Shown: in pieces, positions 2 to 15,315 of the stretch
Layout: each line of letters opens with the position of its first letter
How positions within the stretch are numbered: the stretch's first letter is position 1
Origin: Pyrobaculum sp. 3827-6
GTDB lineage: Archaea; Thermoproteota; Thermoprotei; Thermoproteales; Thermoproteaceae
Direction: 5' to 3'
Assembly: GCF_025641885.1 (NCBI RefSeq)
Contig: NZ_JAOTQN010000006.1
Coordinates: forward strand, 1 to 34,690
Length of the DNA: 34,690 bases
Notes under the pieces: model-generated
The model's input: only the letters and a program-made list of their open reading frames with translations
What the model was told of the DNA's origin: nothing
Database searches by the model: none
Position numbers and translations under genes: made by a program

Positions 2-3000
2 GTAGCCGCCACCGGCTACAACGTAGCCACCGGCATGATGATGACCTACCACATCTTGCACTGGCTCGGCGAGATAGCAGAGAGGTGGGTTCCGACGTTA
101 TTCTTCCTCGGCATGCTCCTCATGTTGCTACCCCGAGTGCGGGGGCTCGGGGCTCTGCTCTTCGGCGCTGGCCTCTTCCTCTACGTAGCCACCATCGCGG
201 GGGCGTACACCACCGCCCAGGGCATACCCCTTCTGCAGTGGATGGGCGCCACAAGCCAGTGGGCTAACAAGGCGCCGAAGCCAGAGCCGCAGATATACAC
301 GGCGCTGGCGGTGGAGGGTGACGGCATAGCTTTGCTGAGATACAACGCCACTGTGCGCCTCTCACAGGTGAGAGAGGCACTCATAGAGCTAAACAAATCG
401 GCGTACCCCGTCGTCCTCTTTAACAAAACCACGTTGAAGCAGGCCCTCGACTTCTTCTCATCGCTGGCGAAGAACGGAAGCGACTGGGTAGCCGCCGGCT
501 GGTGGACGCCCACGCTGGTGGGCGTCAAGAACTGGACCGGCCTCGGGCAGAACCGCACCTACATAGTCCACACGTGGCTTGACGTGCCGCGTAAGGTGGA
601 GACCCTCTACTGGTGCCCGGACTACTCCATGATCGAGCCCTACTACAGGGCGGCGGTGGGAAACGCCGTGTTGGGCAACGTGTCGGCTCAGGAGTGGATG
701 GACAGGATAAAGGAGGCCGAGTGCAAGTACTACAAGAAGCTGTTACCATGGGCTAAGATATACGCCGGGCCGCAGCCCTTCTGGAAGATGCTCACCGCAG
801 ACGTAAACATCACTGTGACATACAACAACAAAACCCTCCTCAACGAGACGAGAGCCGGCTACGTGGGGGTCTGGGGGTGGCTGGTGCCGCCCGCCTCGGA
901 GGTCTACAAGGGCGGCAACGTCACTGTGAAGAAGGGTGTGCTGAAGTACGACGTAGGCCTCAACTCCACCAACTACACAAAGCCCGTGGCGAGGCCGGCG
1001 GAGTCGAACTTCACCATTTTGGTGCCCAACGCCGGCAAGCCGCAGAGGGGCGGCTCGCAAGACTTCTACAAGTGGACTAGGGTCTGTGAGTGGTGTTGTG
1101 GCTGGACGTGTGACGCAAACGGCAACTGCTGGTGCACCCAGTGGTGCTCCACTTCGCGGGAGGAGTGGGAGGAGCCCCGCTACGAGAAGGTGCTGAAGCC
1201 GTCGGCCGCCTCCCTAACTGCGTTGTCCTACAGAAGGCCTTGGGTGCCGGAGAACCGAAGCGACGCCGTGCTGTCAATCCCATTCACCTATAGGGACTGG
1301 CGGGTTTGGGCTGAGGAGAAGTACGGCAACTGGAGCAACGGGGAACCGCCCAGCGGCGCCACCTGCCGGATTGAGAACAAACACGTCTACAAGCGGGTGG
1401 TGTTCTGGGACGTACAGCGAAACTTCGCCTATGTGTACGGCTTCGCGTGGCTTGGCGGAGTGGAGCTTTACGTAAACCCCCAGAGCGTCCAGCTACCAGA
1501 CACCTACGACGAGGCGCCTACAAGCGAAGACAGCGTCGAGCTAATCAACCTGCTGAGAGGCGCAGAGTACGACCAGGAGTGCTCCACCTTTATAGAGGCG
1601 GCCGACGAGCCGCGCTGGCGGCTGGTGCCTAAGGCCGCTGAGAACATGACCCGGGTGAACCGCGACCTTTTCTTCGCCCTGCTGGCCGCGGGCAACTACA
1701 GCAGGGCGTATCTAGACTTCCTCAAGTGGCTTGCTCCAAACGTCAGCGACATAGAGCCCACAGCCTCGGTCTGGCGCTACTACTACGGCGCCATAAAGCC
1801 GAGGCCACTCCACCCAATGCCAGAGACAGAGCCGAATGGATATGCGCCGTACAACTTCTACGCCGCGTGCGTCAGGTTCGACTGGAGGCCCGTAGGCGTG
1901 GACAACGTCAAGAAGGCCTACGGACGCGTCGTGCTGTATCCGGGCAACGCCACGTGGCTTCTCCACTACCCGATGGGAGACTCCAACACCACGCGTAAGC
2001 TCATCGGGGTGTGGATCCAGAGGTGGAGGTGGATTATGAACAACCCGCCCCCGCCGCCGCCGAGGGAGCTGGCGGCTCAGTGGCCAATCCCGTGGAATAA
2101 CACAGTGGCGCTTCCGTACGTGCCGGCGCAGACCCCGCCCATGCCTAAGCCTGACAAGAGGTGGGGTGTCTCTATCTGGGATGTTGGTTTTACGCTGAAC
2201 ATACCTTGGGCTTTCTCAGAGATTTGGGGGAGGCTCTTCGTGGCGCTTTTCGTGGTGGTGTTCGCCCCCGTCGTCGTGCTGGAGGTGCTCTCTGCTGTGT
2301 TTGGCTTTCCGTCGTTTGGGCAGTACCTCATGAGGCTGGCTATACACGTGGTGCAGGAGCTGGCCTTCTGGTTCCAAATCCGCCTTATGCTGAAGTCTAA
2401 GTGGTTCACCCGGCTGGCGAGGTTCATGGGCTCTCCGATAAAGAGAGCCTCGATAAGGCTAGTTAGGCGCCTGGCGCTGAAGGGGGCTGTCATTGCAAGG
2501 CGGTATAGGGATAGGGCTAGGGAGTACGTGGAGAGGCGCTTCGGCGTACACCCAGACGCAGTCAACGAGCAGGTGAGGAGGCGTATCGAGGAGGCGGTGT
2601 GGCGGAGGCTGAGGCAGGCCGAGGAGGCTCTTGTGAAGGGAGGCAGAAAAGCCGCCGAGGTTGCCAAAGAGGCGGCGAAGGCCACCTACGAGGCGGCTAA
2701 GGTGGGGTATAGAGTAGCCAAGACGGTGCACGAATACACGAAAGGAGACCTAATCCACTTACTGCGGAGGGTTTTCCCGAAGTTGGACTACGCTCTTGAC
2801 GTTGCTTTGGATGAAATCGCGAGGAGGTACCCACTGCTCTACTTCACTCTGCTTTGGCACATAGACGACAAGCCGAGGTGGGTGGCGTTGATTAACCCGG
2901 CGTATCTCAGAAGACTGTATCTAGAGGGCAGAATTACGCGGGAGAAGTACGAGGAGCTCATGGCCCTGAGGGAGTACATCCTGGCGAGGAGAGCCGCCGC

Positions 3001-6000
3001 TAAGGCCAGAGCAGTCGCCGAGCGTGTTGAGGAATTCGCAGTGGCGCAGAAGATGAGGGAGGTAGAGAAGGAGGCCGTCCAGCGCGCTAGACAAGCCTAC
3101 ATGGAGCTAATAAGAAAGCTAGCAATTAAGGACTGGGAGCGCGAAATCGCGAAGCGCGTAGAGGAGCTTCTCAAAGCCGGCGTGTCGAGGGAGGAGGCGG
3201 TGAGGGGAGCCGTCTCCGAGGTGGTTGGAGACGTGGAGAGGCTGGTGAGGGGTGTCTACGAGCCCCTCCTCGAGATGCACATGGGGGCCTTCTCCAAATT
3301 CGCCGCCTTCTTTAGACAAATCACGGGGGTGGAGCCTAAAACTGCGAGGGAGGCGGCTGAGCTGTTGGTTGGCGCCCGCGTCGAGGGCGAGAGGGTCGTG
3401 GTAGACCCCTCTCTCAGAGCTAGGTTCCTCAGACACGCTGAGCAGTTCTGGGCGTTGTGGGAGGAGTACTGGCTGTCGCGCCCGGTGCCCTACGACGCGA
3501 GGAAGTTCGCCAGGGCTGTGGCTGTGGACGAGATTAGGGCTTCGCTCCCCACTCTGAGGGCGGTGGCTGTTGCCAGGGCGGTGGCTATAGGCGCCGTCAA
3601 GCCTGAGGAGGCGGAGAAGATGCTCAAGCCTCCAGTGAAGGAGCTCACCCTCGGCGCCGAGGAGTACGTGGGTAGAGCGACGCCTCTGGAGAGGGGCGTG
3701 TCGGTAAAGCCCTATGTGTCGAGAGAGGGCTTGGCGGAGAGGCTGGCTCTGCTGAGGGCCGAGAGGATGGCCGAGTCGGCGTATAGAGAAGTCTACGTCG
3801 TCTCGGCTCTGACGCCCATGGCCGCAGAGCCCTGGGCTCTTAAGCTGTTGGAGAAGGCCGTCAAGGCTGTGAAGGAAGGCGATGAGAGGGCGAGGAGGGA
3901 GGTGCTTAGAGAGTCTTTCGAATACTTCCGCAGATTCGGAATGGAGCACTCATGGCTGGCGTACATGAGGCGGGTGTACGCGGTGGAGAAGCCGGAGGCT
4001 GTTAAGGTGCTGAAGGCATTTGAGAGAGCCGTGAGGACGGCTTTGTCTGGCGATAGGGAGGAGGCAGTTAGGCAGTTCAAAGCCGAGGTGGAGAGGCTGA
4101 AGGAGTTCTACACCGCCAGGGGTGGCGAATCCGCCGTAAGGACCATCGAGAAGCTAGAAAGAGAGTACGTCAGACTGTTGGAGAAGGTCAAGCCGGAGGT
4201 CCTTAGGGACCTGGCGCCTGTTGAGCACTCCGCCAGGGAGGCGGAGAGGCTGAGGGCAGTTCTGGAAAGGCTTTCTGACGTGAGGTCTGCGAGGGAGGGC
4301 TGGGAGTTGTTCAGAGAGGGTGACGTCGGCGCCGCTGGGCTGTCGCTACTCTACAGAGAGCTGGTGAGGAGGGTGGAGGAGGCCGCCGCCAGGCATAGAG
4401 CCGTGGTGGAGGCGGCTTCTGAGGCGCGGGAGGTGGTTAGGCAGTACGAGTCTCTTAGGTCTCTGCTTCGCAGATACGTGGAGGCCTCCCCCGCTGAGAG
4501 GGTGAGGCTTGAGCCTGCGCTGGTGCAGACGGCGGAGGCGCTGAGGAAGAGGGCTGAGGCCGTGTCTGGGCGGCTGGGCGTGGTCGAGCCTCCGCCCGAG
4601 TTTTATGTAAAACTTGCCGAGGCGTATGTACGGCTGTACCGCATGAGGGTTGTCGATAGAGAGGAGAGGCTGAGGGCGGCGGCGCAGATAGGAGAGGAGC
4701 TGAGAAAGACCTACTCGACGAGGCCTCTGGCTGAGTTCTGGATGCCGGACCCGCTTCTGTATGCGATCGCGGCGGAGCATAGAAGGCTTGTGGAGGAGCT
4801 GAGAGCCGCAAAGGCGGCTGGCGGTGGCGATGCGGTGAAGCGGATAGCCGCGGAGCTATCCGCCCTCGTCGAACTGGCCCACAGACACGCCTCGGCGAGA
4901 GAAATTGCGGAGGTGTTCAAGGCGGTGTACGCTGGGAAAGAGCCGTATGTGGTGGTGAGAGAGGCGCAGTACGACGTGGCTCTCCGCCTGTGGCAGACCG
5001 CTGAGAAGGCGGCGGCGCTGGAGAAGGTTAAGAGAGACGTCTCCAGAGAGCTTGAGCCTCTGAGGCGCGTTGAGGTTAGGTTGCCCGGCTACAGAGAGGC
5101 CTTGGAGAGAGTTCAGAGGCTTGTAGGCGAAGTCGAGGCGCTTGCTAGAGCCGGCAGGTACGTAGAGGCTGAGGGGCTTTTGAAGCAAGCACGCTCCGTA
5201 GCGGAGGCTCTAAACAGAGTGGAGAGGGCGGTTGGGGCTAGGCTGACGAAGATAGAGGCGCCTAGCGACGTCTCGCTCTACCTAGACGCGTGGACAGCCG
5301 TGAGGTTATCAACGGCGGCCTCTCTGCTGTATACAGAAGAGGAGAGGAGGGCGTTGACTAACGCCCTTAGAGAGCTGTACAGGGGAAGAGGGCGGGAGCT
5401 GGCGGAGGCGGTGGCGGCTGTCAGAAAGGAATACGAGCCCTACTTCACAACGGTGAAGTTGCTGGGTAGGGAGGTGGAGGTCCCGGTGTTTAGACAGCCT
5501 ACTGTGCCGGCTGAGGTCTTCGAGAGGGCTTTGGCTGTGGTGTTGCTGGCTGAGCTGGCTAGGCGCGAGAAGAGCGTGGCGGAGCACGTGGGCAAGAGGA
5601 TAGAGGCCATCGCAATAAACGCACTTACAGACCTCGGGCAGAGGGTGGGGGTAGAGGAGGCTAGGCGCATCTGGGGCAGGGCCATAAAGGAGGCTCGGGA
5701 GGCTCTACAGCCTCCCTTTGCGAAGCTGACCACCGGCGACGCCGACGTTTTGGCTCTCAGAAAGGCGGCCGAGGCCGTGCTTGAAGTAGCTGGGAGGCTG
5801 GGCGTAAGGACGAGGGCCGTGGAGGTGGCTGTCGAGCTTACGAAGCCCGGAGCCGCCGAGGCTGTTATCAGGTATTTCAAAACTCTAGAAGAATTTAGAA
5901 AGACGCAGGACAGGACTAGAGAGGAGGAGCTGAAGAGGCTCTACCAAGAGGCGCCTAATGCCATTTCGCTGTTGTTGAAAGACGGCGCCAAGCCTGGGGA

Positions 6001-9000
6001 GGAGGCTGTTAGGCTTGTTGAGACGTTTAGGAGGGAGGCTGTTGAAGCCGCGGCGGCTGAGTTGTCTAGACTGCGCGCGGAGCTTGAGAAGTACCTAGAC
6101 CCAGACTCGGCGAGGCTGTTGATTAAAATTGCCTCGATTTCGCCCTCCGCGGCAGAGGCGGCTCTGGCACTTCAGTCTGTAAGAGACGCCGTCAGCGGGG
6201 AGAAGGACCTTGAGAAAGCGAAGGCCAAATTAAAGGAGTACGTCAAGGCGCTTGAGGCCTATCCACGCCTGGTTGAATACCTAAAGGCCCCCTCGATAGG
6301 CGAGAGGGAGCTGGCCTACATGATATGGGCTTCTGAAAAGCTTAATCTCAAAAACGCCTCCGAGATGCTAAAGGCGTTGGGCAGGGCTTACGAGCTTTTC
6401 GACGCCTACGGCCGGGAGAGGCTTTTCAACACGCTGTACGACCAGCTTCTGCCTTACCTGGGCTGGGAGCCCGAGAGGGCTCTGCTTAGGGCCCCGCCGG
6501 CCGTCTACGTGGTGAATAGGCTTGGGGAGCTGGCGGGGAGGGTATTCGCCCGCTACCCGGTCTTCACAGAGCTGAAGGATGTTGTCGGCGACGTGGCTGT
6601 GCTGGCGGACGTGCCGCTGAGGGTGGGGATGCCGACGTACGTCTTCAGACGGCCGAGGGTTAGGCTGGTAGAGGAGGAGGTCAGCGGCAGACACTACCCA
6701 GACAGAGTAGCCCGCTTCATCGCCAGGTGGGACTGGGGCGGCGTGCGTGAAGGCATCCAGCGCTATATGCGTACTACCGAGGGCAGGAGGCACAGAGCGC
6801 TGGCCGAGCTTCTGGCCAGAGGCGGCGTCGCTCTCGCTCTTGAGGAGTCTGCACACGCGCTTAGGGGAAAGGCGCCCGACGTCGTGGTAACGGCTCTGCT
6901 CGCCAGGGCGGCTAGGGAGGAGGCGGCTCTGGCAAAAGCCGCCGAGAAGGTGGATAGAGAGAGGGCGAGGGTTGTGGCCGAGGGCGCGGCGAAGAAGTAC
7001 AGCAGATACGTAAAACAGCTGAGAGAGGCCCTGGCGCAGATAGACAGAGAGAAGGCGGAGGAGCTTCGGAGGTGGTTCGGGCCGGGTGCTCTGTCTTTGA
7101 CTAGATTGGATCCGGAGGAGGCTGTCAGTAGGTTGGTCAAGTGGGCCGCGCCTGAGAGGGTTTTGGCGTGGCTGATTGATCTTAAGCTGGAGGGCGTTGC
7201 AGATACTGTTGCGAAATCGATAGAGGCCTACCGCCTCTACAGGAGGTTTGAGCGTTGGATGGAGCCGAGGCGTACGTTTGTGAGGGAGGGCGGAGTTGTT
7301 TCAGTAGCCAGGGCACTTGACGTAGAGGCAAGATATCAGCCGTCTAGGCTAGAGGACGCTGTTGTGAGAAGCATTGGCAAATGGGCCTCTCAGCGTGTCA
7401 AGAGGCTTGAAGAGGAGGTTGGCAGAATAGCGTCTCAGCTGGCTAGGCACCACTCGGAGGGCCGTGTGGAGCTACCCAGCGCAGTAGCGCAGTGGCTGGC
7501 TGAGAGGGGCTACTACGACCTCGGCAGGTTGCTGAGGGAGGTTCAGCCAGCTGAGGAGGTGTATAGGCAGTACAGAGAGGCTGTTAGGGGCGTCGTTGAG
7601 GAGCTTAAGGCAGTGGCGAGGTTCTCCCCCGGCGCAAAACACGAGGTTGAGAGGGTGGCGAGGGAGTGGTACGGCGAGGGAGGCCTAAGGCGCTACGTGG
7701 CTGTGGTTGCGCTTCAAGAGCTGGCTCGGATCGAGCCGGCCCGCGCTAGGGAGGCCGCGCTGTATAGGCAACTGCCGGAGGAGCTTAGGCGTATGGCCGA
7801 GGCCGAGTTTGCAGACGTGGAGAGAGCCCTCGTTAGGGAGGGCTTCTACGACTCCGCGCTTAGGCCGGTGTGGAGGGCACTGTGGCTGAGGGCGAAGGAA
7901 GGTAGAGATCCGAGGGCCTACGCCGAGAGGCTGGTTGCGAGAATCGAGGCGCTGGCTGGTAGGGGCGACCTGCCTGACGAAGTGGCGGAGAGGGCTGTCT
8001 CGGCGTTGAGGGAGTTTGCTGAGACGTCTCTAGACGACCCGGCTCTCTACGAGAGGGCTGTGAGGGCTGGCGACGCCGTGGCTGATGTGGCGGCTCATCT
8101 GGTGAGGACAGGAGCCCTCGGCCTCGGCTACGGGGCGGCGGAGCTTCTGAAAGCCGCCGCAGAGGCTGTTAAACGCATAGCGCCTTCTAAAGAGCTCCTC
8201 CTAGAGGCGCTGTATAGGGCAATGGATAGAGACGTTGAGGAGGCTTTGAAGTCATACCGCCAGTATCTGGCGGAGGGCAGGATGCCCGTCCCGCGGGGCC
8301 TTGTCCAGGTCTACGTGACTAGGAGTAAAAAGATTGCAGACTTCCTGGCTAGGCGCCTGGCCGTTGAGGTGGGGGAGTACAAGCCAGACGTCTTGAGGAG
8401 GGGCCACGTCTACTACTTCCTCTACCACCCCGCGCTGAGGGAGGTGCTTGGGGAGGCGCTTGACCTGCTGGTGGCTAAGGTGGCTAGGTCGAGAGATCCC
8501 GTGGAGGTGAGGCTGGGCATCGCCCCGCCAGAATACGTCTTTGTAAACAAGGCGCTGGTGGCTCACGTAGGGGAGGGAGGGGTCTTTGCGTATCCCAACC
8601 GCTGGGTGGACGCCGTCTTCGGCGTGTTGAAGAGTGTGGCTGACAAGGGGGTGTCGGTCTGGGGCCAGCACGTGGACAGAGCAGTCAAAGACCACGGCCC
8701 GGCTCTCCACGCCTATCTGAAGGCCTTGGATAGAGACTACAGAAGGCTGTGGGCTATGTACGGCGACTACCAGAGAGCTCTCAGAACCTACCTAGCGTCG
8801 AGAGTTGCCGCTGTTATGTTCAGCCGGCTGGTGGAGGAGGCTAAAAAAGGCAGATACGAGGCGCTTTGGAGCTGGATGCCGGGGAGCTGGGGGGAGGGTA
8901 TCCTCCTCCACCTGGCGGAGAGGGCTGGGCTGTCGGTAACGCTGAGGGAGCTTGAGGATGCGCCTATTGTTGTGGATAGGGTGAAGAAGTGGCTTGAGTG

Positions 9001-11872
9001 GCTTCTGGCGGATAGGCTGGCGCCGCCGGGCGGCGTCGATATTGCCTTCTACGCCGCGGCCAAGCTGTACTCGGAGGTTAGGGGAGTCGACGTAAGGGAG
9101 GTGGAGAGGTATGCGCTGGAGAGGCTACGCTCAATACTGAGGGAGGAGGCCAAGACAGCCGCCGAGGAGCTTGAGAAAGCCATGAAACAGTGGGAGAAGC
9201 CGTCTGAAAAACCCGCTCTGAAGACGGCAGGGGAGGCCAAAGAGAGGGCGGCTGAGGGCGAGAAGCCGTCTGAAGAGGTTAAGGAGAAGCCGCCTCTCGG
9301 CTTTATCCCCGAGAGGTACAGAGGCGCTTCCGCCGTGTCTTGGCTTGCCTCGGTGAAGGGCCGTGTCGAGTTGGATGGGGAGGCTGCTGAGGCTGTTAAT
9401 AAAGCCGTGAAGAAGGCGCTGTCCAAGGTGAGGGCTAGGTATGTGGAGAGGTTGATGAAAAGGGGCGGCATGGCCCTCGTAGAGGCGGCTGAGTCTCTGG
9501 CGAGAGACGTCTACAGCTTGATATGGCACGCCGCCGACTCCCCGGAGGCTCTTCGCCACCTAGAGCTGTTACTCGACAGAGCCGAGGACGTGGTCCACGG
9601 CATGGAGCCTAGGAGCCCAGTGGAGGCAGACGCCGCTAGGGTGTTTGCAGACATACGCGAGAGGCTGGGGAGGATAAAGGCGGAGCTCGGCGAGGAGCTG
9701 GCTGAGGAGGCTTGGCGCTACGCGTATGCAGTCGGCAGAGAGGTGCTGAGAGCGTTGATTTCTGTGCATGAAGGCGCCCTCAGAGCCGTCGCCACGGTGG
9801 AGCAGGCTCTTAGGCTGGCCGCCTTCGCCGGGGCGGCGGCTGAGGCGGTATTCGCACTGCATCAGGGGCTGTACAGCGAGGCCGTGGTGTCTGCGGTTGC
9901 GGGGGCCATTGCGCTTGTTGAGGAGGGTAGGTTTGAGAAGGCGGTTGAGTACGTCAGAAAGGCCGCCGAGGCGGCTTACGAAGCTCTGCGGGAGTGGCTG
10001 GAGAGGGCTAAAATCGCGCTGGAGAGGCTTTACGAGCTGTTTGTAGAGGCTGTCGCTAGGGTAGTCGGCTGGATAGATGAGCACAGGGCTTGGCTGTTTC
10101 TGGCGGCGGCCGCAGCGGCCGGCATCATCACATGGGCCTTTGCGCATGATGTCTTAGGCTCTATTCAGCTGGGGAGGATGGCGGAGGCGGCTAGCATGGC
10201 GCCAATTTTTGGCATTATTAGGGGTGAACCACTTAAGCCGCTGAGAGTCTCAAGGGATGTCGTTGAGAGGTGGCTAAAGGAAGGAGAAGACGAATTAAAT
10301 AAAACTAGGAAGCTTTATGAAGATATAAATAAAGGTTCTGTTAACTATCAATTATTTAAGGAGCTGATAAATATAGAATCAAGAAAAGTTGCCGCTCTAT
10401 TGGTCACCCACATATTCCGTGATGTAGCTGAGGATCTAATACGTGGCACAAATGACTTAGAAACAAGTATTAATATATTAAAAGAAAAAATAAAACTATT
10501 GCAAAAACAACTTATTGAAATTAAAATAGAAGATAAACAACTGATGAATCTAATAAATGAAGTAATTAGCCAACTCGACATAAATGAAGTCAGAGCATTG
10601 GGATTGGCGACAGCCAATAAGAACGAGTTATTTTTATACGGAGACACTACAGTTGCTGAAAAGGCAGTGGCAATGTTGTATTCCCTTCAAAAAGCTGGCG
10701 CTTATGCAAAAGCTGTAGCAGGTGCCATGAGTCAGGGTAAAATAACTGACATGATTAGTGTAACGCCTAATTGGGCATATAACAAATATGCAAAGAATGC
10801 TCCAGTTGAAGAATTAAGGATAACAGGGAAATTAATAGCAAATTTTGCCACAAAGCAAATACAGTCAAAACTAGAAAGCATCCTCATGAATATAAATGTA
10901 AAAGATAAAAAATCCATAGAAAAAATCGAAAAAATCCTAGAGGAAGAACTTAGAAAAGTAGAAAAAATACCACAAGAATATGTCTTACCAACGCTTCTTG
11001 GGCTGTTGGCAACTGACTTAACTTTTGAAAAAAGAGGTAAAAAGATTAAAGTAACGACTACTCAATTAGGCCTAGCTGAATTTTTCGCTAAGCTTACAGA
11101 TTTTGCATATGTTAATGTACATACCAAACGCGGAACTAGAGTTATGTTACAAATAGCCGTAAGAGCAGATCCTCCCGATGAACTATTCGACGAATATGGC
11201 CGCACCTTGGAGTGGTTGAGTAAGGGTGGTTTTAATGAAATCAGGAACTTAGTGATACAGGGAGCTGGCATCAGCAAAGAAGCAAGTGGGAGGGGGGCGA
11301 GCGAGCTTCAGATAGATCCGCAAAAAATTGCTGACGAATTGATAAATGCATTGAAGTATCTTCTAAATAATGTAGAGACTTCTTCAAAGAATTTCGCTCA
11401 TATAGCGAAAGAAATCTCATTTGAATACACCTCTGTGGTGCGGTTTTTACTTTCGTGGCTTACGGCATATAGGTGGATAAATGAAGGAAAGTCAAGAGAA
11501 TTTACAGTCTTCTTAACGTCGGCTATATTAGGCGATGGAAGCATTAGTGGAAACGATGTAACATTAATAATAGGCGAATTCTCTTCTACTAAGACTCTAG
11601 GGTTAAGTCATATACATAAGGTAGCACTAGCCTTAGGAGTGCTTCAGAAAGCCGGTTACGCGCCTGAAAAGATTTTTGCAAAAGTTGAAGGAAAGAGAAT
11701 GTGGTTTGAACTTAAGTGGTCTGCGAAAAACGCTACACAGTTTATTTCAAAGTCTTTAATTGAGAACTACGCGCCAACGCTTGCTGGTGGAGGAGATGCG
11801 TTTAGGCTTAAGTTTATGAAGATGGCAGACATTATAAAGCGTAGTAGAGAAAAATATCCCTCCGACAACTAA
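2..11872 (+). CDS. Giant membrane-anchored protein, N-terminus off the window
   Basis: The frame is open from base 2, so the true start lies to the left; the first Met inside is at 35 (residue 1 here). Residues 19-33 and 38-58 are hydrophobic membrane segments. Residues about 59-720 form a predicted external domain with about twenty N-X-S/T sequons and a cysteine cluster near 350-376. A further membrane segment lies near 733-758. About 2,550 residues of Lys/Arg/Glu/Ala-rich helical sequence follow, probably cytoplasmic, with a Lys/Glu/Pro linker near 3050-3090. Another hydrophobic stretch lies at about 3352-3375. From about residue 3400 the DNA becomes AT-rich. The last 120 residues contain a segment (ILGDGSI near 3832) reminiscent of LAGLIDADG-type domains and PaREP2-like proteins. 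Function is unknown. The RVRGLGALL motif after the first hydrophobic stretch weakly recalls VirB6/CedA-like DNA-transfer membrane proteins, which is inference only. The single uninterrupted frame argues that the gene is functional. Confidence 0.85.
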   Translation, partial: VAATGYNVATGMMMTYHILHWLGEIAERWVPTLFFLGMLLMLLPRVRGLGALLFGAGLFLYVATIAGAYTTAQGIPLLQWMGATSQWANKAPKPEPQIYTALAVEGDGIALLRYNATVRLSQVREALIELNKSAYPVVLFNKTTLKQALDFFSSLAKNGSDWVAAGWWTPTLVGVKNWTGLGQNRTYIVHTWLDVPRKVETLYWCPDYSMIEPYYRAAVGNAVLGNVSAQEWMDRIKEAECKYYKKLLPWAKIYAGPQPFWKMLTADVNITVTYNNKTLLNETRAGYVGVWGWLVPPASEVYKGGNVTVKKGVLKYDVGLNSTNYTKPVARPAESNFTILVPNAGKPQRGGSQDFYKWTRVCEWCCGWTCDANGNCWCTQWCSTSREEWEEPRYEKVLKPSAASLTALSYRRPWVPENRSDAVLSIPFTYRDWRVWAEEKYGNWSNGEPPSGATCRIENKHVYKRVVFWDVQRNFAYVYGFAWLGGVELYVNPQSVQLPDTYDEAPTSEDSVELINLLRGAEYDQECSTFIEAADEPRWRLVPKAAENMTRVNRDLFFALLAAGNYSRAYLDFLKWLAPNVSDIEPTASVWRYYYGAIKPRPLHPMPETEPNGYAPYNFYAACVRFDWRPVGVDNVKKAYGRVVLYPGNATWLLHYPMGDSNTTRKLIGVWIQRWRWIMNNPPPPPPRELAAQWPIPWNNTVALPYVPAQTPPMPKPDKRWGVSIWDVGFTLNIPWAFSEIWGRLFVALFVVVFAPVVVLEVLSAVFGFPSFGQYLMRLAIHVVQELAFWFQIRLMLKSKWFTRLARFMGSPIKRASIRLVRRLALKGAVIARRYRDRAREYVERRFGVHPDAVNEQVRRRIEEAVWRRLRQAEEALVKGGRKAAEVAKEAAKATYEAAKVGYRVAKTVHEYTKGDLIHLLRRVFPKLDYALDVALDEIARRYPLLYFTLLWHIDDKPRWVALINPAYLRRLYLEGRITREKYEELMALREYILARRAAAKARAVAERVEEFAVAQKMREVEKEAVQRARQAYMELIRKLAIKDWEREIAKRVEELLKAGVSREEAVRGAVSEVVGDVERLVRGVYEPLLEMHMGAFSKFAAFFRQITGVEPKTAREAAELLVGARVEGERVVVDPSLRARFLRHAEQFWALWEEYWLSRPVPYDARKFARAVAVDEIRASLPTLRAVAVARAVAIGAVKPEEAEKMLKPPVKELTLGAEEYVGRATPLERGVSVKPYVSREGLAERLALLRAERMAESAYREVYVVSALTPMAAEPWALKLLEKAVKAVKEGDERARREVLRESFEYFRRFGMEHSWLAYMRRVYAVEKPEAVKVLKAFERAVRTALSGDREEAVRQFKAEVERLKEFYTARGGESAVRTIEKLEREYVRLLEKVKPEVLRDLAPVEHSAREAERLRAVLERLSDVRSAREGWELFREGDVGAAGLSLLYRELVRRVEEAAARHRAVVEAASEAREVVRQYESLRSLLRRYVEASPAERVRLEPALVQTAEALRKRAEAVSGRLGVVEPPPEFYVKLAEAYVRLYRMRVVDREERLRAAAQIGEELRKTYSTRPLAEFWMPDPLLYAIAAEHRRLVEELRAAKAAGGGDAVKRIAAELSALVELAHRHASAREIAEVFKAVYAGKEPYVVVREAQYDVALRLWQTAEKAAALEKVKRDVSRELEPLRRVEVRLPGYREALERVQRLVGEVEALARAGRYVEAEGLLKQARSVAEALNRVERAVGARLTKIEAPSDVSLYLDAWTAVRLSTAASLLYTEEERRALTNALRELYRGRGRELAEAVAAVRKEYEPYFTTVKLLGREVEVPVFRQPTVPAEVFERALAVVLLAELARREKSVAEHVGKRIEAIAINALTDLGQRVGVEEARRIWGRAIKEAREALQPPFAKLTTGDADVLALRKAAEAVLEVAGRLGVRTRAVEVAVELTKPGAAEAVIRYFKTLEEFRKTQDRTREEELKRLYQEAPNAISLLLKDGAKPGEEAVRLVETFRREAVEAAAAELSRLRAELEKYLDPDSARLLIKIASISPSAAEAALALQSVRDAVSGEKDLEKAKAKLKEYVKALEAYPRLVEYLKAPSIGERELAYMIWASEKLNLKNASEMLKALGRAYELFDAYGRERLFNTLYDQLLPYLGWEPERALLRAPPAVYVVNRLGELAGRVFARYPVFTELKDVVGDVAVLADVPLRVGMPTYVFRRPRVRLVEEEVSGRHYPDRVARFIARWDWGGVREGIQRYMRTTEGRRHRALAELLARGGVALALEESAHALRGKAPDVVVTALLARAAREEAALAKAAEKVDRERARVVAEGAAKKYSRYVKQLREALAQIDREKAEELRRWFGPGALSLTRLDPEEAVSRLVKWAAPERVLAWLIDLKLEGVADTVAKSIEAYRLYRRFERWMEPRRTFVREGGVVSVARALDVEARYQPSRLEDAVVRSIGKWASQRVKRLEEEVGRIASQLARHHSEGRVELPSAVAQWLAERGYYDLGRLLREVQPAEEVYRQYREAVRGVVEELKAVARFSPGAKHEVERVAREWYGEGGLRRYVAVVALQELARIEPARAREAALYRQLPEELRRMAEAEFADVERALVREGFYDSALRPVWRALWLRAKEGRDPRAYAERLVARIEALAGRGDLPDEVAERAVSALREFAETSLDDPALYERAVRAGDAVADVAAHLVRTGALGLGYGAAELLKAAAEAVKRIAPSKELLLEALYRAMDRDVEEALKSYRQYLAEGRMPVPRGLVQVYVTRSKKIADFLARRLAVEVGEYKPDVLRRGHVYYFLYHPALREVLGEALDLLVAKVARSRDPVEVRLGIAPPEYVFVNKALVAHVGEGGVFAYPNRWVDAVFGVLKSVADKGVSVWGQHVDRAVKDHGPALHAYLKALDRDYRRLWAMYGDYQRALRTYLASRVAAVMFSRLVEEAKKGRYEALWSWMPGSWGEGILLHLAERAGLSVTLRELEDAPIVVDRVKKWLEWLLADRLAPPGGVDIAFYAAAKLYSEVRGVDVREVERYALERLRSILREEAKTAAEELEKAMKQWEKPSEKPALKTAGEAKERAAEGEKPSEEVKEKPPLGFIPERYRGASAVSWLASVKGRVELDGEAAEAVNKAVKKALSKVRARYVERLMKRGGMALVEAAESLARDVYSLIWHAADSPEALRHLELLLDRAEDVVHGMEPRSPVEADAARVFADIRERLGRIKAELGEELAEEAWRYAYAVGREVLRALISVHEGALRAVATVEQALRLAAFAGAAAEAVFALHQGLYSEAVVSAVAGAIALVEEGRFEKAVEYVRKAAEAAYEALREWLERAKIALERLYELFVEAVARVVGWIDEHRAWLFLAAAAAAGIITWAFAHDVLGSIQLGRMAEAASMAPIFGIIRGEPLKPLRVSRDVVERWLKEGEDELNKTRKLYEDINKGSVNYQLFKELINIESRKVAALLVTHIFRDVAEDLIRGTNDLETSINILKEKIKLLQKQLIEIKIEDKQLMNLINEVISQLDINEVRALGLATANKNELFLYGDTTVAEKAVAMLYSLQKAGAYAKAVAGAMSQGKITDMISVTPNWAYNKYAKNAPVEELRITGKLIANFATKQIQSKLESILMNINVKDKKSIEKIEKILEEELRKVEKIPQEYVLPTLLGLLATDLTFEKRGKKIKVTTTQLGLAEFFAKLTDFAYVNVHTKRGTRVMLQIAVRADPPDELFDEYGRTLEWLSKGGFNEIRNLVIQGAGISKEASGRGASELQIDPQKIADELINALKYLLNNVETSSKNFAHIAKEISFEYTSVVRFLLSWLTAYRWINEGKSREFTVFLTSAILGDGSISGNDVTLIIGEFSSTKTLGLSHIHKVALALGVLQKAGYAPEKIFAKVEGKRMWFELKWSAKNATQFISKSLIENYAPTLAGGGDAFRLKFMKMADIIKRSREKYPSDN
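10230..11872 (+). other. AT-rich 3' segment of the giant gene
   Basis: The upstream 10 kb of the gene is strongly GC-rich. From about 10,230-10,290 the codons switch to A/T-ending ones (AAA, ATA, TTA, AAT) and stay so until the stop, apart from a short GC-rich patch near 11,287-11,320. The reading frame is not broken. This looks like an in-frame join to DNA of different origin that ends just before tRNA-Tyr. The breakpoint was placed by eye. Confidence 0.7.
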
Positions 11873-12257: not shown

Positions 12258-13085
12258 TCATCGGCATGTGCCCAGCGCCCCGCACACCGGCTCGAGCCTC
12301 ATCAGCGCCTCCAATGTGCTTCCGGTGAGTTGTATCTGCCTCTCACCTCTCGTCCAAGACTCCACGCCGAGGGTCTTCAGCAAGGCGGTGGACCTCACGT
12401 AGTCCGCCTCGCGCCCTCCCTCGGCGCCGGCGTGTATGTTTACGTAGCCTTGAATCTCGCCGTCGCTCTTTTTGTAGAACCTCATCTCCTTCTCCACAGC
12501 AACTCCGCGGCCTTCCTCCACGACGGCCCTCATCCTCACGACCAGATGCTCCTTCCTCTCTCTGCGTTCTCTCCAGGCCTCCACCCCCTCTATACGTACC
12601 TTCAGCCTTCTGCCCTCTACCTCGACCTCCTTCTCTATTGGCGGCTTCGCAGAGCCCCACATCTCCCCCTCGCGGAAGTACTGCTCCAGCCGCCGGCGCG
12701 CCTCGACGCCCTTCCTTCCGGCCTCCTTGAGGAGCATTTCCTTTAGTCGCCGTTATCCGGACGAAGCCCCTCCCTCCGGCTCTCTAGCCGTGAAGTGTAT
12801 GAAGCACCACTCCCCCTCACAGATGTCCCTAAGGCCGAGCCCTCTCAGAAGCTCCACGGTATTCCTAAAGGACTGCGGATCGCTGGGCTGGTACTCCACC
12901 ACCACGGAGCCGTCTTTTATCAGCTTCACGGAGAACCTGACATCGCTCCACTCCGGTACTCCCCTTCCGAGCTTCGCGGCGAGGTGTCTGTACGTCTCCT
13001 CCCCGATGGCGCCGGCCTCTCTGCACTGCCTTAAGAACTCCGCCACCGCCCCTCCCTCACGAAGGGTATCCACCCCCTGGCCCAA
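12258..13085 (-). pseudogene. PaREP2b-like relic with in-frame stop
   Basis: Two minus-strand segments lie in the same frame: 13085-12753 (110 aa, with FSVKLIKDGSVVVEYQP and FIHFTAREPEGG) and 12737-12258 (159 aa). Only a TAA at 12753-12755 and five further codons (RRLKE) separate them. The motifs are those I associate with PaREP2-type repeat proteins, a family known for broken members. The first segment begins inside the end of the nucleotidyltransferase frame. The C-terminal end also looks truncated or frameshifted near 12,270. Function is unknown, and the copy is probably dead unless the stop is read through or the two halves act separately. The family name is from memory of motifs. Confidence 0.6.
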
Positions 13086-13384
13086 GCCGACAGCGCGCCG
13101 GCTTTGTTTATGACGATAAAGTACCCCCGCCTCTGCAACCTCTCTACGTCTATTCGCCTCAGATCAGTCGGCTCGAGGACTGCGACGTACTTGTCCGCTC
13201 TGGGTATGTTGTATATCGAGGTGTCGATGACGGCGTACCTGGCCTTCATCTTCCTCAACACGACCAGCACGTCGATGTCGCTGTCCTTCCTCTGCTCGCC
13301 CCTAGCATAAGAGCCGAAGAGCACCAGGGAGATCAGGTCGTCGCCGTAGACCTGCAGGAACGCGTCAACAAGCTCCCTCTCCAT
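13031..13384 (-). CDS. Minimal nucleotidyltransferase (MNT-type), C-terminus replaced
   Basis: A 117-residue protein with the polymerase-beta nucleotidyltransferase signature GSYARGEQRKDSDIDVLVV near residues 24-42 (the GS motif and the Asp pair that binds metal). Proteins of this type are often the nucleotidyltransferase half of MNT/HEPN toxin-antitoxin pairs, but no HEPN partner is next to it. The last 18 or so residues come from DNA that, in another frame, encodes the start of the PaREP2b-like relic, so the natural C-terminus is probably lost. Start ATG 13384 has a TATA box 27 bases upstream, consistent with a leaderless transcript. Activity is uncertain. Confidence 0.7.
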   Translation of the reverse strand: MERELVDAFLQVYGDDLISLVLFGSYARGEQRKDSDIDVLVVLRKMKARYAVIDTSIYNIPRADKYVAVLEPTDLRRIDVERLQRRGYFIVINKAGALSAWARGWIPFVREGRWRSS

Positions 13385-13667: not shown

Positions 13668-14663
13668 GTGAACGTGAGAAGATTCGGCCCCGAATGGTTC
13701 GCCGTCGTTCTGGGCACGCTAGCGGTCTCCATGAACTCGCTGAGGCTCTCTGTCCTGTGCGACTGCCTAAGGTACGTTGGATGGCTTTTCTTCTACCTGG
13801 GTCTATTGGCCTTAGTCGTGTTGGGCTCGCTTTGGACCATCAGGCTATTCTCTAACCCCAGCGTGGTCAAGGAGGACTTCCTCAACGTCATAAGACTCTC
13901 CTTTGTTCCCGTGTTGCCGCTTTCGATTACCGTCTTGCTCACAATAAACTACCTCTACGACTTCGCGAGCTTTCCTGAGCCCTTGTATTACTGGCTGTAC
14001 TACGCTATCTACGTTTCCCAATTCGTCGCTTCCATCGCCTTAGGGGTCAGGTTGCTCCTTCTTGACGTAGACCCGAACTCGATCACTTACGCAATACTCA
14101 TCCCACCCGTCTCCGTATTGTCTATCTCCTTCCTAGGGATACCGCTTAGGGAATATTTCTTAACGGCTATAGCGACCGGCGTGGGCGTGTTGCTGTTCCT
14201 CTTCTTAGGATCCGTAGCCTTGACGCTCCACGTTAGGGAGGCCAAGACCTTGGCCAGGCTGTCCTCCTCTATAATGCCAGCCGGTGTTAGCAGTATAGTG
14301 GCTTTGTCCTTACTCGGTCTAGCCGGCGGGGGACTGTTAAGTGCCTCTAGCGCGAGGCTGATTGGGCTGACGCTCGTAGGCTTCGAGACGTGGAACTTCT
14401 TCGTTACCTTAGTCGTGGCGGGAGCCAGCTTCCATAGGCTCAGGAGGGAACCTCTGCTGTTGTGGGCGCTGACCTTCCCCGTCTCCGTATACTCTTCGGC
14501 GTCACTGGGACTGTATTACGCATACAGGCAACCCTTATTCCTGTGGCTGTCGTTCATGGCTTACGCTACTCTCCTGGTCTTCTGGGTCACCGCTACTACC
14601 CTCACCGTGGATCTCCTTGTAGCTCCCTCAGTACTCGCTCCGCCTTCTCGAGCCTCGGAATGA
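13668..14663 (+). CDS. TDT-family (TehA/Mae1/SLAC1-like) membrane transporter
   Basis: About 330 residues, almost wholly hydrophobic with around ten membrane segments. It opens with RRFGPEWFAVVLGTLAVS, the typical start of the tellurite-resistance/dicarboxylate transporter family, which moves C4-dicarboxylates, sulfite or other anions. The substrate cannot be told from sequence. The frame extends back to ATG 13644, but the TATA box there makes GTG 13668 (or 13674) the likely leaderless start. Its last 62 bases overlap the convergent PurM-PfkB chimera, and the final hydrophilic residues may be read from neighbouring DNA after a rearrangement. Confidence 0.78.
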   Translation: MNVRRFGPEWFAVVLGTLAVSMNSLRLSVLCDCLRYVGWLFFYLGLLALVVLGSLWTIRLFSNPSVVKEDFLNVIRLSFVPVLPLSITVLLTINYLYDFASFPEPLYYWLYYAIYVSQFVASIALGVRLLLLDVDPNSITYAILIPPVSVLSISFLGIPLREYFLTAIATGVGVLLFLFLGSVALTLHVREAKTLARLSSSIMPAGVSSIVALSLLGLAGGGLLSASSARLIGLTLVGFETWNFFVTLVVAGASFHRLRREPLLLWALTFPVSVYSSASLGLYYAYRQPLFLWLSFMAYATLLVFWVTATTLTVDLLVAPSVLAPPSRASE

Positions 14664-15315
14664 TTTCGTTGCCACTCCTGACGGTTACTACTAAAGCTGA
14701 GGAGAGGGAGGCGAGCTTCAAAGCCCTCCCAATGTCGTAGCCCTTCAGGTAAAGGGCGACGAACGTCCCAGCCATGGCGTCCCCCGCTCCCGCTGGATCC
14801 TCGACGACAACGTTGAATGCCTCCACACCGACCTTCTCCCCCTCCTTCACCGCCACAGCTCCCTTCGACCCCATTTTGTAAACGAGCGTCTTAACGCCCA
14901 GCTCCCTGTATTTCCTATAGGCCTCGTCCACATCTTTCACTCCCAGGATCAGGACTTCGGCCCTCTCGGCGGCTTCCTTAAGCCCCTTCATGACCCTCGA
15001 CACGAGCTCGTCGTTGGGCCTCTCGAGGGCGAGGTAGTCGACCGCGATTAATGGATTAGAGCCGACGCAGGCCAGGTCGTTAGTGTTCATCGCGAGGCAG
15101 TCCTGGGCCACGGGCTCGATTATCCCCGTCTGTAGGGCCAGGGGGATCTTCGTCGCAACCACGTCGACGTGGATCGAGAGGTAGTAGTCCCCGAGCTTGA
15201 CAGCGTTCGCGTAGTGCCCAACCCCGACCTCTCCGGCCTTGAAATAAGCTTTGGCGATCTCGTGGTACTGCCTGAGCTTGCCCAAGTCGACGCCGGACTT
15301 CGAGTAGTCGCTCAC
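14602..15315 (-). CDS. Chimera: PurM-like N-half fused to PfkB kinase C-half
   Basis: 237 residues. Residues 1-118 match the N-terminal domain of archaeal AIR synthase (PurM): SDYSKSGVD, YYLSIHVD, DCLAMNTNDLACVGSNPL. The family's glycine motif DGVGTK reads DVVATK (51-56). From about residue 119 the sequence becomes the C-terminal half of a PfkB-family sugar kinase: GVKTLVYKMGSKGAVAV and the active-site loop DPAGAGDAMAGTF (173-185). Each half lacks the rest of its fold, so neither activity is likely. The GTG start (15315) overlaps the stop of a 55-residue gene, implying translational coupling. The junction, near 14,955, is inside AERAEVLILG, where both families have similar sequence. Probably a relic from deletion between two genes. 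Confidence 0.8.
   Translation of the reverse strand: MSDYSKSGVDLGKLRQYHEIAKAYFKAGEVGVGHYANAVKLGDYYLSIHVDVVATKIPLALQTGIIEPVAQDCLAMNTNDLACVGSNPLIAVDYLALERPNDELVSRVMKGLKEAAERAEVLILGVKDVDEAYRKYRELGVKTLVYKMGSKGAVAVKEGEKVGVEAFNVVVEDPAGAGDAMAGTFVALYLKGYDIGRALKLASLSSALVVTVRSGNEIIPRLEKAERVLRELQGDPR

Follow-up and report, generated by a model that had tools for sequence, protein, structure and literature searches.

A giant membrane protein linked to tedA in Pyrobaculum as a probable component of the Ted DNA-exchange apparatus

An 11.8-kb open frame at the beginning of a 34,690-nucleotide stretch of Pyrobaculum sp. 3827-6 (contig NZ_JAOTQN010000006.1; the whole stretch is referred to here as the window) is a genuine gene for a giant membrane protein. 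We consider it probable, at roughly 70%, that this protein is an integral-membrane component of the Ted DNA-exchange apparatus, which is related to type IV secretion systems (T4SS), and within that apparatus it is most likely a TraG-like component. Our analysis identified a conserved gene, its operon position in related genomes, signals of membrane topology, an N-terminal domain homologous to TedA, a C-terminal module modelled with a LAGLIDADG-type fold, and exchange of that module between copies. From these observations we infer that the protein belongs to the physical Ted complex, in which its ectodomain would act in mating contact and its end domain would process DNA.

The giant gene and the layout of its product

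The frame ran without interruption through 3,956 codons, of about 4,100 in the whole gene, and its first ATG, at position 35, leaves 3,945 codons, which is the minimum length given in a preliminary description made from the DNA letters alone. Because contig C6 of this genome (G000) begins at the first base of the window, the gene is truncated at its 5' side and its true start lies outside the window. In alignment with a full-length ortholog, residue 1 of the window frame falls on residue 146; relatives thus carry about 145 further N-terminal residues, with three additional hydrophobic segments that are predicted membrane helices, so that two of the five N-terminal segments of full-length copies are retained here. 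Compared with the closest copies, dN/dS was 0.10 to 0.15 (0.21 at most) across the ectodomain and the 2,580-codon helical body, a measure that covers the frame as far as residue 3360; the C-terminal third evolves faster, at about 0.3. Intact copies of 4,433 to 4,642 codons were present in two species, and orthologous copies of 4,200 to 5,058 amino acids were found in the genus and family. The low dN/dS and the intact copies elsewhere indicate that the frame encodes a real protein and is not a chance opening, and the single frame of more than 11.8 kb that the preliminary description proposed is therefore upheld.

That description also raised the prospect that the frame might prove to be several separate proteins. 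In a Thermoproteus-like draft genome (G014), the corresponding region (L089:2232-13613) is read as consecutive open reading frames of 325, 2,337, and 1,122 amino acids, whose borders roughly match domain borders, and one copy in genome G004 is frameshifted. However, single intact frames of 4,372 to 5,058 amino acids occurred in complete one-contig chromosomes of several species, and the low dN/dS extended over both body and ectodomain, making several proteins or an assembly artefact a highly improbable explanation. The one-contig chromosome of G004 itself holds three intact copies (4,594 to 4,642 amino acids) beside the frameshifted one; the other giants measured 4,372 (G002), 4,857 and about 4,400 (G012), 5,058 (G010), and, from computed starts, 4,239 and 3,572 amino acids (G018).

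The genome of the window carries further copies, with pieces of the family at contig ends (N-terminal pieces on C2, C1, and C3; C-terminal pieces on C3, C5, C2, and C1; a middle piece on C8), a typical assembly break on long repeats. Searches together with contig ends gave at least four N-termini and at least five C-termini. The paralogs are old (dS about 0.5 to 0.7), and some Pyrobaculum genomes have no giant gene. No giant N-terminus was found on plasmids in PLSDB or viruses in IMG/VR, and nothing in Pfam or NCBIfam matched the whole window protein above cut-off.

Features of the window discussed in the text (nucleotide positions, inclusive)
Feature	Positions	Strand	Basis
Giant Ted-linked protein gene, 5'-truncated	2..11872	+	Open frame, contig start, ortholog alignment, dN/dS
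End of N-terminal VirB6/TedA-like membrane domain	2..199	+	Hydrophobic segments 74-130 and 143-199; hhalign to TedA
Ectodomain: 22 sequons, Cys-rich, long beta strands	209..2221	+	Sequon counts, AlphaFold2 model
Transmembrane helix, out to in, followed by basic juxtamembrane stretch	2234..2290	+	Hydrophobicity, charge
Amphipathic helical body, ~2,600 residues, predicted cytoplasmic	2354..10081	+	Cys absent, sequons nearly absent
Ala-rich hydrophobic segment, conserved, preceding the C-terminal module; membrane or buried helix	10088..10144	+	
AT-rich C-terminal module	10169..11869	+	AlphaFold2 mean pLDDT 85; Foldseek
Similarity and G+C junction, C-terminal module exchange	10183..10213	+	Nucleotide similarity to sisters ends
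LAGLIDADG motif 1, LLGLLATDLTF, Asp codon 11015 (Asp3672)	10994..11026	+	
LAGLIDADG motif 2, TSAILGDGSI, Asp codon 11534 (Asp3845)	11516..11545	+	
Inverted orphan fragment, in two frames, of the standard PaRep2b-containing end	12258..13053	-	tblastn, PaRep2b match

Hydrophobic segments were located at residues 25-43, 48-66, 745-763, and 3363-3381, which bears out, with small corrections, the succession of membrane segments, ectodomain, helical stretch, and end domain drawn in the preliminary description. Residues 70 to 740 held 22 sequons, where about twenty had been claimed; shuffled sequences gave an expectation of 4.1 and in no case out of 500 as many as 22. One sequon occurred in the 2,580 residues that follow. 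The inner flank of the 745-763 helix (residues 765-860) was strongly basic, with 22% K+R and 6% D+E, and the body that follows is therefore predicted to be cytoplasmic. Residues 785-3360 were devoid of cysteine; prolines were spaced 20 residues apart (median), and hydrophobicity recurred with a period of about 3.7, suggesting that the body is built of short packed amphipathic helices and not of one coiled coil. Profile sequence searches of the PDB for relatives of the body, of either terminus, and of TedA returned chance matches only. Pairing of 200-residue profile windows gave no clear internal repeats, the best pairs, at 28% against at most 4% for reversed windows, being short or overlapping with the hydrophobic end. 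In the AlphaFold2 model the core of the ectodomain was predicted with confidence and contained very long beta strands; Foldseek found no significant match to this model, which included the N-terminus, among PDB or viral structures.

The C-terminal module was not enriched in sequons, with 2 where 3.2 were expected, and no membrane helix was predicted in those of its free-standing relatives that were checked. These observations suggest that the module is probably cytoplasmic. The segment at 3363-3381 may be buried or re-entrant, and could in principle place the C-terminus outside. The large, glycosylated, beta-rich ectodomain would suit one of the roles first suggested for the protein, a surface fibre or adhesin with no part in DNA transfer. 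However, the part predicted to lie outside amounts to only about 700 residues out of about 4,100, and most of the giant being predicted cytoplasmic leaves a plain surface fibre unsupported; the TedA-like membrane domain and the position in a tedC-tedA operon, described below, further make this explanation very unlikely.

Operon position and kinship with TedA

Since the upstream flank of the window copy lies beyond the contig end, linkage to tedA and tedC was read from sister copies. Genes for TedC and TedA stood directly upstream of giants on two other contigs of the same genome (G000:C1 and C2) and in G004, G002, G010, G012, G018, and G014. At nine of 11 tedA loci the giant started 1 to 4 nucleotides inside the tedA stop codon; the remaining two had a 108-nucleotide gap (L088) or an inserted CRISPR array and a frameshifted giant (L041). 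Genome G010, which we take to be Pyrobaculum calidifontis, an assignment to which the published TedC signal cut AVA/QA at L046:3021-3482 also points, has the order tedC pilin gene (Pcal_0765), tedA (Pcal_0766), and giant gene, and the giant ATG and the tedA stop overlap by 4 nucleotides. No mention of Pcal_0767, the giant gene, was found in the literature searched. Some giant copies (for example, G004_a) have no adjacent tedA. Other upstream genes encode HerA-like, Rad51-like, and AAA ATPases, including HerA/TraG-like P-loop ATPases at L007:13867-15000 and L043:1-981, which are candidates for either TedB or HerA.

Two of these loci have features of their own. At L041:2566-3678 (G004:C1, ~277.6 kb), a CRISPR array with 17 exact copies of CCAGAAATCAAAAGATAGTTGAAA lies between tedA and the frameshifted giant; this locus is a decayed Ted copy. 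At L007:4396-5305, the tedA of the G000:C1 copy appears frameshifted into pieces of 84 and 234 amino acids.

The same gene order extended across the class, as a pilin gene, a gene for a TedA-like protein of 257 to 287 amino acids, and a gene for a large protein, the last two overlapping or a few nucleotides apart. At the order level, seven genomes had a strong TedA match and each of them also carried the giant N-terminus, whose profile recovered proteins of 840 to 1,431 amino acids across the class, encoded after tedA-like genes. These shorter relatives share the plan of the giant: four to six helices at the N-terminus are followed by one or two more further on and by a reduced tail, and sequons number six to 19. 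Their genes directly followed pilin-like and TedA-like genes at L092, L093, L094, L096, and L097, a TedA-like gene at L098, and a pilin-like gene directly at L084. This class-wide pattern suggests that the short form is the conserved third gene of a Ted-like operon and that the giant is an expansion within the Thermoproteaceae.

Profile comparison aligned giant residues 8-241 with TedA residues 23-251 at 83%. With class relatives added, hhalign scored the giant N-terminus against TedA at 95 to 96% (P about 1e-8); the controls stayed far lower, reversed profiles at 0.2 to 0.6% and none of 11 unrelated membrane proteins above 0.6%. The single TedA-like protein at L092, a locus presumably from Thermofilum pendens, matched the giant N-terminus at 94.6%. 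The five hydrophobic segments of full-length copies fit the norm of five to seven for a VirB6/CedA/TedA-type domain. According to the main text of the paper describing Ted, TedA is itself VirB6/CedA-like, a link that needed HHpred (PMC9905601). The giant accordingly carries a second VirB6-like module. The kinship that the preliminary description thought worth checking was thus recovered for TedA but not for solved VirB6 structures, as an hmmsearch of the PDB with the N-terminal and TedA profiles gave no direct match to a solved bacterial VirB6, a comparison for which HMMER may be too weak. The tedA and tedC linkage and the N-terminal homology to TedA strongly support the suggestion, also made at the outset, that the protein is part of a DNA-transfer (Ced/Ted, VirB6-like) machine.

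The exchanged C-terminal module

At the junction between body and end domain, G+C content changed from 0.61 to 0.37, and the end domain is AT-rich, as first described. The nearest relatives of the window module were at L052 and in a free-standing 560-residue protein at L048. In sister copies the module runs on for about 400 residues into PaRep2b (PF07775), which matched above cut-off in sister giants (E = 3e-105 in that of P. oguniense) and had no Pfam match in the window giant. Of the Pyrobaculum giants checked, only the window copy and that of P. calidifontis were without PaRep2b. The family occurs up to 35 times per genome, in giants and in free-standing genes, most copies being outside giants; in P. 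oguniense a free-standing gene encodes 1,194 residues that correspond to the final ~1,150 of the giant. The C-terminal modules are exchanged, and that of the window has been swapped for an AT-rich version.

Downstream of the giant gene, the inverted orphan fragment matched the C-termini of C3, L052, L053, and L054 at 62% identity by tblastn and PaRep2b at positions 12771-13049. An invertible C-terminal cassette was considered and rejected, as no long inverted repeats flank this fragment; PaRep2b showed no profile similarity that would make it a further LAGLIDADG copy. Adjoining the fragment is a small nucleotidyltransferase (MNT-like) open reading frame (13031-13384, minus strand), and at 14602-15315 (minus strand) a 237-residue open reading frame oddly combines an N-terminal AIR-synthase match with a C-terminal PfkB kinase match. 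In what is presumably the P. aerophilum genome, L100:4324-12681 holds a 2,785-residue open reading frame with the distal body and PaRep2b end and no N-terminal membrane part, whose last ~60 residues lie in a separate frame.

The last 567 residues of the window protein were modelled by AlphaFold2 as two alpha-beta-beta-alpha-beta-beta-alpha units, each with a LAGLIDADG helix. The best Foldseek matches in the PDB were I-OnuI (probability up to 1.00), WhiA, and I-Tsp061I, with probabilities mostly of 0.95 to 1.00 for I-OnuI and WhiA at E-values of 0.01 to 0.1; the Pfam family LAGLIDADG_3 fell below threshold (E = 0.003, 18.1 bits against a cut-off of 22.5). The Asp-Gly of motif 2 was invariant in 15 of 15 aligned copies, and wherever an aligned copy from Pyrobaculum or G018 covered a motif, the motif aspartate was present. 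We take the module to be a double LAGLIDADG fold. In P. calidifontis and G012, motif 2 was not recognisable and no LAGLIDADG similarity was detectable by profile in the C-termini, indicating that the module is not universal. WhiA is a LAGLIDADG-fold protein that can bind DNA without cutting it. The preliminary view that the layout matches no nameable family is therefore borne out in the ectodomain and body; the C-terminal end, in contrast, has a LAGLIDADG-type fold and, in sisters, continues into PaRep2b.

Two further explanations centre on the C-terminal module. The module might be a selfish LAGLIDADG/PaRep2b homing element with no part in transfer, leaving only the N-terminal part of the giant to work in Ted. 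The fold itself, the abundance of PaRep2b, with tens of copies in certain Pyrobaculum genomes, the faster evolution of the C-terminus, and the term putative transposon applied to PaRep2b in the P. oguniense paper (PMC3558965) are consistent with this explanation, which we nevertheless judge unlikely, as the module is in frame in nearly every Pyrobaculum giant and under purifying selection, and the age of the paralogs argues against recent insertion. The giant body might instead deliver the module as an exchangeable nuclease-like tip into neighbouring cells, in contact-dependent antagonism of the CDI/Rhs kind. Such a system could account for the abrupt C-terminal exchange with its jump in G+C, the free-standing and orphan modules in the same genome, and the endonuclease-like fold. 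However, the Pyrobaculum C-termini compared form one homologous family and not an assortment of toxins without common origin, and the regions downstream of the window copy and of the four free-standing modules showed no candidate immunity gene. The C-terminal end is also placed in the cytoplasm by the scarcity of sequons and by the basic inner flank, and tight linkage to tedA would be unexpected. Antagonism is therefore quite improbable.

Proposed role and relation to known systems

As a component of Ted, the giant may be arranged as follows. Its ~240-residue N-terminal VirB6/TedA-like module would sit beside TedA in the channel complex, and the N-glycosylated ectodomain would reach into the space under the S-layer, where it probably stabilises or gates cell-cell contact, as F-plasmid TraG does. 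The membrane helix would connect to a 2,600-residue helical cytoplasmic arm, whose C-terminal module probably binds, and possibly nicks, DNA for transfer or receipt and would bring it to the channel. We hypothesize that the LAGLIDADG end processes the transferred DNA. A bolder version, which we hold tentatively and regard as rather unlikely, is that the LAGLIDADG module is the missing DNA-processing nuclease of Ted, tethered by the arm and exchangeable, with the PaRep2b repeats as its spare parts. If so, a nuclease unrelated to bacterial relaxases would be built into an archaeal conjugation-like channel. More speculatively, the scattered occurrence of the gene and the age of its paralogs would fit a division of exchange into specificity classes.

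Ced and Ted are presented, in the text of the papers describing them, as minimal T4SSs lacking a relaxase, VirB8, or an outer complex (PMC9905601, PMC11868833). The giant offers candidates both for the relaxase and for the mating-pair proteins absent from these descriptions, as a DNA-binding or nicking tip would fill the first gap and the ectodomain the second. It also gives PaRep2b, a repeated family of unknown function, a structural context. The proposal is directly testable in P. calidifontis, whose Ted pili have a solved structure.

In the Thermoproteales, Ted comprises TedC, a VirB2-like pilin, TedA, a VirB6-like channel, and TedB, a VirB4-like ATPase (Beltran et al. 2023, PMC9905601); the main text of that paper names these three together with HerA, ParA, and Rad50 genes, and a figure legend refers to "other genes" and Rad50 genes. 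The loci are the same as those described here, where the giant lies directly 3' of tedA with an N-terminal domain homologous to TedA. The giant protein is not mentioned in that main text (PMC9905601), and the gene seems not to have been described before.

We class the giant as a VirB6-like T4SS component, set apart from the following two bacterial families by description and not by sequence. F-plasmid TraG, a VirB6-VirB8-like protein that acts in mating-pair stabilisation and entry exclusion (PMC7555446), likewise has an N-terminal VirB6-like membrane domain and a large outside domain and is encoded in a transfer operon; the giant differs by an additional membrane helix and a cytoplasmic part of about 3,200 residues, and Foldseek found no VirB8 fold in its ectodomain. 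The extended VirB6-4 proteins of Rickettsiales, of 4,322 and 9,935 amino acids (PMC7648143), share with the giant a VirB6-like domain bearing a giant extension in a T4SS. These bacterial proteins have repeat extensions reported to be surface exposed, whereas the extension of the giant is non-repetitive, predicted to be cytoplasmic, and ends in a LAGLIDADG-like module.

Among archaea, CedE, the second CedA paralog of Saccharolobus (PMC11868833), is, like the giant, a second VirB6/CedA-like protein in a DNA-exchange system, but it has only five membrane helices and neither an ectodomain nor a giant tail. CDI and Rhs toxins have unrelated C-termini, each with an immunity gene, whereas the giant C-termini form one family, with no immunity-like gene seen after the window copy or the free-standing modules. 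Finally, PaRep2b, a Pyrobaculum repeat family, has so far been known from repeated genes that stand alone, either of unknown function or taken for putative transposons; here it forms the final ~400 residues of the standard C-terminus, at the end of a Ted-linked giant protein.
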